Of a stretch of 64,000 nt of DNA, positions 10,738-29,050 are shown piece after piece. This DNA is from an uncultured Pelagibacteraceae bacterium (lineage in GTDB: Bacteria > Pseudomonadota > Alphaproteobacteria > Pelagibacterales > Pelagibacteraceae): contig CACJSY010000001.1 of the NCBI GenBank assembly GCA_902596205.1, positions 1 through 64,000 of the forward strand, in the 5' to 3' direction. The notes below the pieces were generated by a model. That model ran no database searches. It was not told the DNA's origin and saw only the letters and a list, made by a program, of their open reading frames with translations. A program made the position numbers and the translations under genes. Each line of letters starts with the position of its first letter. The stretch's first letter is position 1.

Positions 10738-11160
10738 ATGATGAGTACAATTGAAGAGAAGTGTAAAGAAAAAGGCGTCAGATTAACTGACCAGAGAAAA
10801 GTAATTGCAAAAATACTCTCAGAGTCTAAGGAAGTTTACGGATCAAAAGACCACCCAGATGTTGATGAATTGCATAAGCGGGTTACAAAAATAGATGATA
10901 AAATAAGTATTGCAACGGTTTATAGAACCGTAAAACTCTTTGAGGAAGCAGGTATCTTGATCAAACATGATTTCAAAGCAGGCAAAGCAAGGTATGAAAT
11001 TAATGATGATCACAATCATTTAATTGATATCAATAGCGGTGAAATCGTAGAATTCGTCGATAAAGATATAGAAGCATTGCAGGTAAAAATTGCAAATAAA
11101 CTGGGCTATAAACTAGTGGACCATAAACTTGAACTTTATGGTCTTAAAATAAAAAAATAA
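10738..11160 (+). CDS. fur: Fur-family transcriptional regulator (Fur/Mur-like)
   Basis: KEKGVRLTDQRKVIAKIL, ISIATVYRTVKLFEEAGIL, DDHNHLIDINSGEIVEF. Confidence 0.9.
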   Translation: MMSTIEEKCKEKGVRLTDQRKVIAKILSESKEVYGSKDHPDVDELHKRVTKIDDKISIATVYRTVKLFEEAGILIKHDFKAGKARYEINDDHNHLIDINSGEIVEFVDKDIEALQVKIANKLGYKLVDHKLELYGLKIKK

Positions 11161-21125: not shown

Positions 21126-23197
21126 TGTTCAAAATACATAAAGAAGAAATAGAAGTTAATGGTAAAAAATTAACTTTAGAGACAGGAAAGGTAGCTCGAC
21201 AAGCAGATGGAGCAATTATTGCATCATTAGGTGAAACAGTAGTAATAGCAACCGCTGTAGGGGCAAAAAAATTAAATGATGGTCAAGATTATTTTCCATT
21301 ATCAGTTAATTACCAAGAAAAATATTATGCAGCTGGAAAAATTCCAGGTGGATATTTTAAAAGAGAAGCAAGACCTACTGAAGCTGAGACTTTAATTTCA
21401 AGATTAATTGACAGACCTATAAGACCTTTATTTCCCTCAAGCTTTTTGAATGAAGTTCAACTGCTTCCAACAGTATTATCTTACGATGGTGAAAATCAAC
21501 CAGATATTTTGTCAATTATAGCTTCATCAGCGGCATTAGCTATTTCTGGCTTGCCATTTCAAGGTCCTATAGGCGCAAGTAGAGTTGGATATAAAGATGG
21601 AAAATATTTATTAAACCCATCTATTGAAGAATTAAAAGAATCAGAATTAGATTTAGTTGTAGCAGGAACAAAAGATGCAGTTTTAATGGTAGAGTCTGAA
21701 ACTTCAGGATTATCTGAGAAAGTGATGTTAGATGCTGTAAAATTTGGACATGAAAACTTTGTACCAATAATTGAAGCAATAGAAAAATTAGCCAAAAAAG
21801 CTGGAAAGCCAAAATGGGAAGTCGAAGAGATTGATCATTCTCAGGTTAAAAATAAAATATCTGAAAAATTTGAAAAAGATTTAAGAAGCGCATTTAAAGA
21901 AATTGATAAGAAAAAAAGGTCTACAGCTATTTCTGAAATAGAGACTAAATGTAAAGAAATGTTTGCTGAGGATGAAAATGTTACCGAAAATCAAGCTATG
22001 GCTCAACTTAAGTCTTTAGAAAAAGATATTGTTAGAACTGCAATCTTAAAAGATAAGAAAAGAATAGATGGTAGAGGTTTAGCAGATGTTAGACAAATTA
22101 AATGTGAGGTGGGTGTATTACCAAGAACACATGGTTCTGCACTTTTCACTAGGGGAGAAACGCAAGCACTTGTTGTTACTACACTAGGCATGACAGATGA
22201 TGAGCAGAGATTGGAAAGTCTTGAGGGAATGCAAAGATCGAATTTTATGTTGCATTATAATTTTCCACCTTTTTCAGTAGGTGAATGTGGTAGAATTGGA
22301 ACTGGAAGACGAGAAATTGGTCATGGTAAATTAGCTTGGAGAGCTATTAATTCCTCTTTACCTTCAAAAGAGAACTTTCCTTATACATTGCGAGTAGTTT
22401 CAGAAATAACTGAGTCTAATGGATCTTCATCGATGGCTACAGTTTGTGGAACTTCGCTTTCATTGATGGATGCAGGTGTGCCTATAAAAGAGCCTGTAGC
22501 TGGAATTGCCATGGGATTAATTAAAGAAGGTGATGATTTTTCAGTTCTATCAGATATTTTAGGAGATGAAGATCATTTAGGAGATATGGATTTTAAAGTT
22601 GCTGGCACAAAAAATGGCATAACTTCATTACAAATGGATATCAAAATAACAGGAATAACATTCGAAATAATGGAAAAAGCATTAAATCAAGCTAAAGAAG
22701 GAAGAGAGCATATTCTAGGTGAAATGAATAAAGCTATTAAAACATCAAGAAAAGAGTTTTCAAAGCACACACCAAAGATGGAAACAATTAAAGTCGATAA
22801 AAAAGATATTGCTACTGTAATTGGTAAAGGTGGAGCTACGATAAGAGAGATTGTAGAGACATCCGGTGCAAAAGTTGACGTTAAAGATACTGGCGAAGTA
22901 ACAGTTGCAGCACCTGATGAAGCATCTAGAAATAAAGCGATTGAATTTATCAAAAGTTTAATTGCTAAACCTGAAATGGGAAAAATTTATAAAGGAAAAG
23001 TTGTAAAAATTATGGAATTTGGTGCTTTTGTAAATTTCTTAGGCAAACAAGATGGACTAGTTCATATTTCAGAATTAGCTGATAAAAGAGTGGCTAAAGT
23101 TGGAGATGTGGTTAAAGAGGGAGACGAAGTATCTGTGAAAGTAGTGGGATTTGATAGAGGTAAAGTAAAATTATCAATGAAACAAGCTTCTGCTTAA
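21125..23197 (+). CDS. pnp: Polyribonucleotide nucleotidyltransferase
   Basis: [32 protein letters not shown] and S1 domains at C-terminus. Confidence 0.98.
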
Positions 23198-23979
23198 GTC
23201 ATATTTTTAGGATCTGGCATTCCTACTTTATTATAACCTGCATCTACATAGTGAATTTCACCAGTAACACCTGCAGCTAAATTACTTAACAAATATAACG
23301 CAGAATTCCCTACATCGTGAATGTCAACATTTCTTTTCAAAAAAGAATGGTCTTCATTCCACTTGTACAAAAATTTTGCATCACCTATTGCTGAAGCTGC
23401 TAAAGTTTTAATTGGACCAGCACTTATAGCATTAACTCTAATTTTTTTTTGACCGAGATCTCTTGCTAAATATTTTACGCTAGCTTCTAATGCAGATTTG
23501 CAAACTCCCATCACATTATAATTAGGAATAGCTTTAGTTGACTCATAAGTAAGAGTTAATAAACTACCACCCTCTTTCATTACTTTACATGCTTCTTTAG
23601 AAACCTCCGTAAATGAAAAGCAAGATATAAGCATACTTCTTAAAAAATTCTCTCTAGATGTGTTTAAGTATTCTCCAGATAATTCTGATTTATCAGAGAA
23701 AGCTACCGCATGAACTACAAAATCAATTTCACCCCATTTCGCCTTAATATCCTCAAACAATTTCACTACCTCTTCTTTTTTTTCTACGTCACAACTAAAA
23801 GTAACTTTTGAATTTAATTTTTCTGCTAAAGGTATTACTCTTTTTTTTAAAGCATCACCAAGATAAGTAAAAGCTAGCTCAGCACCAGCTTCAGCAAGTT
23901 TTTGAGAAATTCCCCAGGCAATAGATCTTTCGTTGGCTACTCCCATGATTAATCCTTTTTTACCTTTCATTAAACTCAT
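23194..23979 (-). CDS. fabI: Enoyl-[acyl-carrier-protein] reductase (SDR type)
   Basis: [64 protein letters not shown]. Confidence 0.94.
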
Positions 23980-23981
23980 AA

Positions 23982-25193
23982 TTACACCTTTTCAAAAATT
24001 AAAGCAGCGTTAGTTCCACCAAAACCAAAACTATTAGACATGACTGTATTAAGTGAAAGCCCTTTTTCAGTTTTAGTTATTATTGGGAATTTTTTGGCTT
24101 CATCATCCATTTCCTTAATATTAGCTGATCCAGCAATAAAATTATTTTTCATCATAATCAAACAGTAAATAGCTTCATGCACTGAAGCCGCTCCTAATGG
24201 GTGCCCTGATAAAGATTTTGTTGAGCTTATTTTAGGAATATTCTCACCAAAAGTTTTTTTAACAGCATTTAATTCTGTAATATCTCCCACAGGTGTTGAT
24301 GTTCCGTGAGTATTTATATAATCAATCTTATTTTTAGAAGTAACCATAGCCATTTGCATACATCTAACTGCTCCTTCACCTGATGGCGCAACCATATCAT
24401 ATCCATCTGAAGTTGCACCATAACCAGTTAGTTCAGCATAAATTTTTGCTCCTCTAGCCTTTGCATGTTCATATTCTTCAAGCACCAGCACACCAGCTCC
24501 GCCAGCAATTACAAAACCGTCTCTATTTTTATCATAAGCGCGTGAAGCAGTTTCAGGTTTATCATTATACTTTGATGAAAGAGCGGTCATAGCATCAAAC
24601 ATAGCTGTCATAGCCCAATGAACTTCCTCACTTCCACCTGCAAAAACCACATCTTGCTTTCCCATTTGTATGAGTTCCATAGAATTTCCAATGCAGTGCC
24701 CACTAGTTGCGCATGCAGAACTCATTGTATAATTTGTACCTTTAATTTTAAAAGGAACCGCAAGTGTTGCGGAAGCTGTACTACCCATTGTTCTTGGCAC
24801 AATAAATGGCCCCATTAATTTTGGAGTTTTCGCTCTAGTTTTATCTGCTGCCAAAATTACGTTTTCGATAGAAGGTCCCCCAGAACCCATGACAATTCCA
24901 GTTTTAAAATTACTTACTTCTTTTTCCTCTAATCCGGAATCTTTAATAGCTTCTTTCATTGCAATATAATTATAAGCTGAACCAGATCCCATAAATCTAA
25001 TTGTTTTTCTATCTACAAAATCTGAGAGTTTAATATTTGGTTTTCCATGCACATGACTCTTAAGATTATGCTCTTTATACTCTTCAGCAAAAGATATACC
25101 TGATTTAGAATTTAAAAGTGATTGATGAACTTCTTCTTGATTATTCCCTAAACAAGATACTATACCTAGACCAGTAACTACTACTCTTCTCAT
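23982..25193 (-). CDS. fabB: Beta-ketoacyl-ACP synthase I
   Basis: [29 protein letters not shown] active-site Cys, [26 protein letters not shown]; adjacent to fabA and fabI. Confidence 0.95.
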
Positions 25194-25693
25194 GATTTAA
25201 ATAACCCTACTTTCAAATTTTCTGCTCGATAAATAATTTTACCATCGGCGCTTAAAATTCCATTTGCCAGACCAACAGCTGTCCCCTCTTTTTTTAGAAT
25301 TCTTTTCATATTTATCTCATATGTAGCTATTTTTATATTTTTCAAAACTTCACCTGTGAATTTTACTGAATTTACACCTAAAGCTCTACCTTTTCCTGGT
25401 TCCCCAATCCATCCCAAGTAAAAACCTACTAGTTGCCACATAGCATCTAATCCTAAACATCCTGGCATTACTGGATCTTTTTGAAAATGGCAGTCAAAAA
25501 ACCATAAGTTGTCTTTGATATCAAGTTCGGCTTTGATAAACCCTTTTTTAAATTCTCCAGTATCTTTTTTAATTTCTGTAATCCTATCAAACATTAACAT
25601 TGGAGGTAATGGAAGTTTAGCGTTTCCTTCACCAAATAATTTTCCCTCTCCACACGAAATTAACTCTTCATAATTGTAGCTGTTTTTTTGCAT
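25190..25693 (-). CDS. fabA: 3-hydroxydecanoyl-ACP dehydratase/isomerase
   Basis: [41 protein letters not shown]. Confidence 0.96.
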
Positions 25694-25744
25694 GATTTAG
25701 AAACTGTTTTACTTGATTTAGCAAAAGTTTCATATATATTTGTG

Positions 25745-25765
25745 TTTAGAATGATTATAAACTAG
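25745..25765 (+). promoter_or_regulatory. Putative Irr/ICE-like operator upstream of irr
   Basis: TTTAGAATGATTATAAACTAG; imperfect 7-3-7 palindrome. Differs from 26215-26235 at one of 21 positions. Confidence 0.65.
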
Positions 25766-25784
25766 TAAAAAAACTTCTAAAAAC

Positions 25785-26192
25785 GTGAAAAAAATAGATA
25801 TTTTTAAAAAATTAAGATCTTCTGGTTTAAGACCTACAAAACAGAGAGTAGAAATTGCCAAATTTTTATTTGAAAGAGATAAAACATTTCATTTTACTGT
25901 TGAAAGCTTAGATAAACTTTTAGCTAAAAGAACTACATCTAAATTTGCGTTAGCTACAATTTATAACACTGTGCATGCTTTTAAGAAAGCCGGACACTTA
26001 AGCGAAGTAGAAGTAAGAGGAAAAAAAACTTATTTTGATACGAACATTACTAACCATCATCATTTTTATGATAGTGAAACTTGTGAATTAATTGACATAG
26101 ATGCTAATGATGTGGTTATCCAAAAAATTCCAAAAGCACCTAATGGAAAAAAAATCAAAAACGTAGAGGTATTTATAAATTTAAAAAATTGA
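25785..26192 (+). CDS. irr: Irr-type Fur-family iron/heme response regulator
   Basis: LRSSGLRPTKQRVEIAKFLFE, FALATIYNTVHAFKKAGHL, TNHHHFYDSETCELIDID (Irr HHH region); divergent to fabA. Confidence 0.88.
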   Translation: MKKIDIFKKLRSSGLRPTKQRVEIAKFLFERDKTFHFTVESLDKLLAKRTTSKFALATIYNTVHAFKKAGHLSEVEVRGKKTYFDTNITNHHHFYDSETCELIDIDANDVVIQKIPKAPNGKKIKNVEVFINLKN

Positions 26193-26217
26193 CAGTTTGT
26201 CGCTTGATTTTTACTTT
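26189..26217 (+). promoter_or_regulatory. Putative sigma70-type promoter of katG
   Basis: TTGACA (26189-26194), 17-bp spacer, TACTTT (26212-26217), overlapping the Irr-like box. Confidence 0.55.
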
Positions 26218-26235
26218 AGAATTATTATAAACTAG
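26215..26235 (+). promoter_or_regulatory. Putative Irr/ICE-like operator upstream of katG
   Basis: TTTAGAATTATTATAAACTAG, 10 bp before the katG ATG and overlapping the putative -10. Confidence 0.65.
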
Positions 26236-28419
<2,184 letters not shown>

Positions 28420-28420
28420 A

Positions 28421-29050
28421 ATGAAAAGTGTGGTGACAATGAAAAATGTCGAAAATTTAAACAAAAAACTTTCTAACGACTTCTATATTGTTCCAAACCT
28501 TAAATTTGATATTGATAAATTAAGATCTGATTTAGAAAAGATTTTAAAAAAGAAAAAATTTAATTCATTAGGGATTAAAAACTTTGCAGCAATACCTTTG
28601 AATCAAATACCTGGTGACAAGTCATCCATAGAAGGTCATAATGTTAGAGGTACTTATTGGACAATTCCAAATGAAAGTGGGAAAGAAGCAAAGAGAGACA
28701 AAGATATTGACGAGTCAAAATATACAGAAATACTTAAAGAATTTAAGGGTACTTACTATGAAGAGGTTTTTAACATTTTACGAAAAAATTTTAAATTAGG
28801 AAGAGTTAGAATACTTTTAAAAGAACCTAGATCCACTTTGAGCTGGCACAGAGACCCTGAGCCAAGACTTCATATTCCAATTATTACAAATAAAGGATGT
28901 AGAATGGTGATTGAGGATGTTAGCAAACATATGCCCGCAGATGGATCAGTTACAATTACAAATAATACAAAATATCATAATTTTTTTAACGGAGGGGAAC
29001 AAAATAGAATTCATTTAGTAGCATGTGTTCTAGAAAATCCATTTAATTAA
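28421..29050 (+). CDS. Putative aspartyl/asparaginyl beta-hydroxylase-like Fe(II)/2-oxoglutarate dioxygenase
   Basis: LSWHRDPEPRLHIPIITNKGCRMVIED (HxD) and TKYHNFFNGGEQNRIHLVACV (distal His plus Arg). Confidence 0.65.
   Translation: MKSVVTMKNVENLNKKLSNDFYIVPNLKFDIDKLRSDLEKILKKKKFNSLGIKNFAAIPLNQIPGDKSSIEGHNVRGTYWTIPNESGKEAKRDKDIDESKYTEILKEFKGTYYEEVFNILRKNFKLGRVRILLKEPRSTLSWHRDPEPRLHIPIITNKGCRMVIEDVSKHMPADGSVTITNNTKYHNFFNGGEQNRIHLVACVLENPFN

Follow-up and report, generated by a model that had tools for sequence, protein, structure and literature searches.

Putative Irr-type operators before irr and the adjoining peroxidase gene of SAR11 bacteria

Introduction

SAR11 bacteria are among the commonest marine bacteria, and their cells carry few regulators and are genetically hard to manipulate. 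A dedicated and predictable switch on the main SAR11 peroxide-detoxifying gene would be a marker of sensed iron or peroxide stress, would make katG or rubrerythrin (rbr) transcripts in metatranscriptomes readable as Irr output, and bears on which organisms detoxify H2O2 for plankton. The locus studied here raises the question of whether two nearly identical palindromes, one upstream of irr and the other upstream of katG, constitute such a switch. The window, that is, the whole stretch of 64,000 nucleotides that was analysed, comes from SAR11, and its irr locus has its named relatives in the Pelagibacteraceae. We conclude that the pair is real and conserved and is most likely made up of Irr-type operators.

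Gene order and sequence of the two boxes

Over approximately 23.2-28.4 kb of the window, fabI-fabB-fabA on the minus strand are followed by irr and katG on the plus strand. The irr gene (25785-26192, plus strand) encodes a Fur-superfamily regulator of Irr type of 135 aa (NCBIfam IrrA, 146 bits; Pfam FUR), and its start codon is a GTG at 25785, replaced by ATG in several relatives. The product of katG (26245-28419, plus strand) is a bifunctional catalase-peroxidase of 724 aa that passes the catalase-peroxidase HPI model (TIGR00198, 1018.1 bits vs a cut-off of 770). Divergent from irr lies fabA (25190-25693, minus strand; TIGR01749, 254 bits), a conserved neighbour, followed on its 3′ side by fabB (23982-25193, minus strand; NF005935, 685.5 bits) and, 3′ of fabB, by a gene for a FabI-type enoyl-ACP reductase (23194-23979, minus strand; NF005078, 414.9 bits, under its cut-off of 446). 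A small Asp/Asn beta-hydroxylase-like gene (PF05118) at 28421-29050, directly 3′ of katG, adjoins katG in several SAR11 genomes.

The two 21-mers described in an earlier note on this DNA were found where it had placed them, identical at 20 of 21 positions and differing solely at position 9. Box 1 (25745-25765, plus strand), with core TTTAGAATGATTATAAA at 25745-25761 followed by CTAG, lies 5′ of irr, immediately 3′ of the −10, where it overlaps the predicted irr start. Box 2 (26215-26235, plus strand), with core TTTAGAATTATTATAAA at 26215-26231 followed by CTAG, lies 5′ of katG and overlaps the predicted katG −10/start region. Both cores read TTTAGAATNATTATAAA, of which no further exact copy was found in the 988-kb genome, and the exact 17-mer TTTAGAAYNATTATAAA likewise has two occurrences genome-wide, the irr and katG boxes. 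With up to three mismatches allowed, the window holds just these two boxes (0.13 expected from shuffles) and so does the whole genome, the reversed-pattern control giving three matches.

The boxes had been described as imperfect 7-3-7 palindromes, one base per half away from the ICE form, which we take to be a TTTAGAA-N3-TTCTAAA palindrome near the promoter. Conservation extends to the bases on either side of the centre (TTTAGAAY-N-RTTATAAW across SAR11 loci), which favours an 8-1-8 reading, TTTAGAAT-N-ATTATAAA. The distance to ICE is one base in all: the left half TTTAGAA is identical, and the right half, TTATAAA vs TTCTAAA, is one base off in all SAR11, where TTCTAAA never occurs in box orientation.

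A candidate irr promoter, TTGATT-16-TATATT (25713-25740, plus strand), recognised by its consensus match only, would place the start inside box 1. At katG, the previously proposed TTGACA-17-TACTTT is present at 26189-26217 on the plus strand; the −35 of this candidate promoter overlaps the irr stop codon and its predicted start lies within or beside box 2. An alternative, TTGATT-16-TATAAA (26204-26231, plus strand), whose −10 lies within the right half of box 2, matches the TTGACT-16/17-TATAAA of other SAR11 katG/rbr promoters. Lying over a predicted promoter or start, both boxes support a repressor position. The sequence TTGACAGTTTGTCGCTTG, running from the irr stop codon (26189-26206), is nearly invariant in close katG-bearing relatives, more so than a −35 requires; it holds an inner inverted repeat GACA/TGTC and may be a second control site.

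Conservation of the boxes across SAR11

In close relatives both boxes are near base-perfect, and the stretch from box to start codons drifts. A protein search of 247 family genomes gave matches in 218, weak Fur-paralogue matches counted in. In a further 20 family members, more distant and with Irr proteins as little as approximately 50% identical, irr was followed by rubrerythrin or by one of several katG alleles (52-95% identical). The box was present, often twice, with a TATAAA −10 in its right half and TTGACT 16-17 bp upstream.

Conservation was quantified in 80 named SAR11 irr loci, mostly from single-cell genomes and separate from the earlier samples. The fabA gene was divergent from irr at all 80 loci, and the gene 3′ of irr was katG in 52 and rbr in 27. 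A box matching at least 14 of 16 positions preceded katG/rbr in 76/79 loci and irr in 65/80, a level reached by about 0.8-0.9% of resampled sequences of the same composition, although these counts overstate the evidence because related genomes are not independent. A separate sample of 50 family loci had the box 5′ of the downstream gene in 48 and 5′ of irr in 42. Across 101 genus genomes, the exact TTTAGAAYNATTATAAA gave approximately 120 sites, nearly all at the irr locus, vs 9 for the reversed pattern. A clear box 5′ of katG was missing at two SAR11 loci (L320, L326). Several irr-bearing lineages (L063-L067, L070, L071) have lost the irr-side box, so that autoregulation is not universal. In SAR11 rubrerythrin promoters (L060, L061, L076 and others), two boxes are often found, one covering the −10 and the other upstream of the −35, as in the outgroups.

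The TATAAA within the box, and the −35 found 16-17 bp upstream of it in many SAR11 katG/rbr promoters, would also be expected if the boxes were a shared AT-rich −10 promoter element and no operator. We regard this reading as very improbable, since the box is nearly absent elsewhere in the genomes and its TTTAGAA was as invariant as TATAAA in the 80 named loci. Two further observations, presented below, argue against it: katG genes of irr-less genomes do without the box, and in outgroups the palindrome lies directly against the −35, with no −10 inside it.

The box follows irr and not the enzyme

Having irr as neighbour, the box may be missed together with it in incomplete genomes, and the argument therefore uses irr-less genomes in which fabA was found. 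Genera g5, g9 and g12, some of them represented by single-contig assemblies, have fabA and katG and lack irr. Their katG is 67-88% identical to that of the window, and no box was found before katG in the fabA-bearing irr-less genomes, several of them complete (scores 9-12, null peak 11). In eight genomes katG lies directly beside fabA and irr is gone; the box had decayed to null level (scores 11-12) in five of these fusions and still scored 14 in two and 15 in one. In one of them (G130, locus L153), the fabA-katG interval still holds a remnant of irr broken by an in-frame stop, irr decay caught midway.

In the KatG tree, at least three irr-linked lineages were interleaved with unlinked KatG, every irr-linked one under the box, and the irr-linkage label required at least four changes on supported branches. 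Despite the kinship behind the locus counts, these gene exchanges and losses are separate events. The box-less katG of irr-less genomes and the presence of the box under several KatG lineages indicate that the operator goes with the regulator and the place, and not with the enzyme. A site that is kept whichever peroxide enzyme adjoins, and that fades upon loss of the repressor, is very probably that repressor's switch. These comparisons support the proposal of an Irr/ICE-type operator before irr and katG: the site is conserved, and it goes together with irr.

Fur boxes have an ATNAT centre in common with the SAR11 box, and the window holds a second Fur-superfamily gene (10738-11082; weak IrrA match, 52.8 bits), probably Fur/Mur, so another regulator of this kind might bind the site. 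This is scarcely less improbable than the promoter-element reading: the box tracks irr, and irr-less SAR11 relatives keep a Fur-family match (E approximately 1e-7 to 1e-9) yet have no box before katG.

Regulon size

The enrichment of the box before iron or haem genes that the earlier note had offered as a check was not found genome-wide; off-locus sites were at chance level and mostly intragenic. The loose ICE pattern TTTAGAANNNTTNTAAA, with up to two mismatches, gave 775 matches genome-wide vs 931 for the reversed control, and one-mismatch boxes over 10 genomes were near chance, off-locus matches lying mostly within genes. Exact off-locus matches were rejected as targets, being located at the 3′ end of an alanine dehydrogenase-like gene or within genes such as a KDO-transferase-like one (both named by reading of their translations). 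With no more than chance numbers away from irr, the regulon seems to be a local one: the putative switch appears confined to the irr locus under the SAR11 consensus, with weaker sites possible. A small regulon is not unique, as only two Irr sites were predicted in Rhodobacter (PMC3413700).

An ICE-like palindrome, TTTAAAATAATTCTAAA, lies 5′ of a TRAP-type binding-protein gene (L123:2001-2017; G000:C11:3339-3355). Although a candidate for a third target, it is intergenic, conserved in one subclade only and missing before this gene in many irr-bearing genomes. Its occurrence in G052 and G089 is no argument against Irr, because those assemblies are without fabA too.

The divergent fabA operon

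The irr-side box had also been proposed to control fabA-fabB-fabI. The geometry would allow it: irr and fabA share a 91-bp intergenic region, in which a minus-strand TTTAGA-16-TATAAT has its TATAAT inside box 1. The proposal nevertheless fared poorly and control of the fab operon is unlikely, fabA probably being no target, since irr-less genomes have fabA without any box, fabA is kept in irr-bearing lineages whose irr-side box has vanished, and the element that persists before fabA is ATCAAGTA and not the box. Nor did the box show any fabA-specific conservation. The ATCAAGTA element (25710-25717, minus strand) is kept 5′ of fabA in many SAR11 genomes, irr-bearing and irr-less, and is perhaps a fabA element in its own right.

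The regulator and its signal

The regulator belongs to the Fur superfamily (PF01475, 63.8 bits vs a cut-off of 23.1), and models ranked in the order IrrA (146 bits), Irr (132.6), Leptospira PerRA (64.3) and Fur (33). Irr is still the best family, although both scores fall under the curated NCBIfam cut-offs (146 vs 150 for IrrA and 132.6 vs 170 for Irr); other small-genome Alphaproteobacteria score 135-149. We call the protein Irr-type, and not proven Irr, because it is 4 bits short of the IrrA cut-off. It has an Asp, not Glu, at the regulatory metal site (D104), N61 in the DNA-binding helix, H91-H93, no CxxC and a single cysteine, Cys100. Asp for Glu, Asn in the DNA-binding helix, absence of CxxC and an HxH or HHH motif have been given as criteria for Irr (PMC8638967, PMC3413700). 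H36, N61, D85, H91, H93 and D104 were invariant in 16 SAR11 orthologues. The Cys-Pro haem motif was absent from the N terminus of the regulator, and HHH was present.

Whether the regulator senses iron or haem, in the manner of Irr, or peroxide, in that of PerR, is a separate matter, and this branch of the Fur superfamily is a clean case for the relation of Irr and PerR chemistry. The protein might be Irr by descent alone and work in a PerR-like mode, as a metal-bound sensor of peroxide or of iron loss acting on a PerR-type box. The box core TTAGAATNATTATAA agrees at 13 of 14 positions with TTATAATNATTATAA, which we take to be the PerR box consensus, and the targets are peroxidases. All five residues of the His/Asp PerR sensing site (H36, D85, H91, H93, D104) are present and invariant, and Leptospira PerR (5NL9, 47 bits) is the top-scoring relative of known structure. 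In Leptospira, the site before perRA itself resembles Irr boxes (PMC8638967). Against this, bona fide Irr has the same residues (PMC8638967), Irr models far outscore PerR models, and the irr-rbr order and palindrome are continuous with those of ordinary alphaproteobacterial Irr.

Published data bear on the direction of the response. In P. ubique, rubrerythrin was upregulated 1.57-fold under iron limitation, and irr clustered with stationary-phase genes in the same study (PMC2864753); in one P. ubique genome, the single rubrerythrin adjoins irr. If the rubrerythrin of HTCC1062 is also irr-adjacent, the response would run counter to the repression that textbook Irr exerts when iron is low, which is a hint only, the change being small and the locus tag being linked to irr through another P. 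ubique genome. In R. sphaeroides, irr mutants showed higher peroxide resistance (PMC3413700). We consider the PerR-like mode a real possibility, though less probable than its converse; it overlaps the preferred reading of the boxes as operators of the Irr-type regulator, with the same anatomy and another signal.

Origin of the module and proposed mechanism

The outgroup set comprised 31 loci of other Alphaproteobacteria with rbr (30) or katG (1) as the gene after irr; rbr is the usual one in this group. The best palindrome against TTTAGAATNATTCTAAA reached at least 13/16 in 19 of the 31 intergenic regions and in 11 of approximately 6200 resampled sequences. This palindrome, TTTAGAAT-N-ATTCTAAA, typically abuts a −35 TTGAC and contains no −10. 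The symmetrical ICE form is thus found in outgroup irr-rbr loci, and the irr-[ICE]-rbr arrangement is the classical ICE situation. It follows that the SAR11 form is derived, with the box shifted over the −10/start, the right half altered and the enzyme exchanged. Together with the conservation in SAR11, the outgroup palindrome points to an operator of the Irr/ICE type, part of an ancient module of irr and a peroxidase gene in which the target can be exchanged.

We therefore favour, with high though not full confidence, the explanation that the two boxes are operators of the Irr-type regulator encoded between them, in a SAR11 form of the ancient irr-[ICE]-rubrerythrin module whose target has been exchanged and whose regulon has apparently narrowed to the irr locus. 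This exchange and this narrowing are its points of interest. From sequence comparison we infer Irr binding to the box, repression and autoregulation. A regulator dimer would bind TTTAGAAT-N-ATTATAAA over the irr start region, and irr autoregulation, as the earlier note had suggested, is likely, although the irr copy is lost in some lineages. The same dimer site over the −10/start of the neighbouring peroxidase gene would block RNA polymerase, and loss of the activating state of the regulator would release peroxide defence. Catalase-peroxidase has replaced rubrerythrin on several occasions with the operator left in place, and the regulon seems to have contracted to the irr locus.

A more tentative proposal, which we hold to be somewhat doubtful, is that the SAR11 Irr lineage became a local PerR-like switch responding to peroxide or iron loss, with about one external target, in a stable regulatory slot. 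Regulator and operator would persist there while the peroxidase behind them changed, its occupants being rubrerythrin and at least three lineages of catalase-peroxidase, perhaps according to habitat. The link to habitat is suggested because katG marks offshore SAR11 genera (PMC12636525).

Comparison with known systems

Irr has been reported to bind at Rhodobacter mbfA and ccpA and, in Bradyrhizobium, at a rubrerythrin-like gene (PMC3413700). The SAR11 box resembles the Irr box/ICE of Rhizobiales and Rhodobacterales (Rhodobacter sphaeroides mbfA and ccpA; Bradyrhizobium blr7895 and bfr) in its TTTAGAA half-site and 17-bp palindrome, as well as in its promoter/start position, its Irr-type regulator and its rubrerythrin or peroxidase targets (PMC3413700). 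The RNA start of Rhodobacter mbfA has been mapped to a position within its Irr box, where repression was inferred (PMC3413700), and the SAR11 box is similarly placed over the predicted start site. On the contrary, the right half TTATAAA, the overlap with the −10/start, the location 5′ of katG and the lack of other targets detectable by the SAR11 consensus set the SAR11 box apart from that ICE. With the PerR box and regulon of Bacillus subtilis and of Leptospira PerRA, the SAR11 system shares the Fur superfamily, a near-identical 7-1-7 core, autoregulation (presumed here), catalase or peroxidase targets and the diagnostic Asp and Asn residues, whereas sequence models, synteny and outgroup palindromes place its regulator with Irr. 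The system is also like the alphaproteobacterial irr-rubrerythrin pair in its gene order, in the ICE between the genes and in a fabA that is often nearby; unlike that pair, the window has katG in the place of rubrerythrin and an operator nearer to the start codon.
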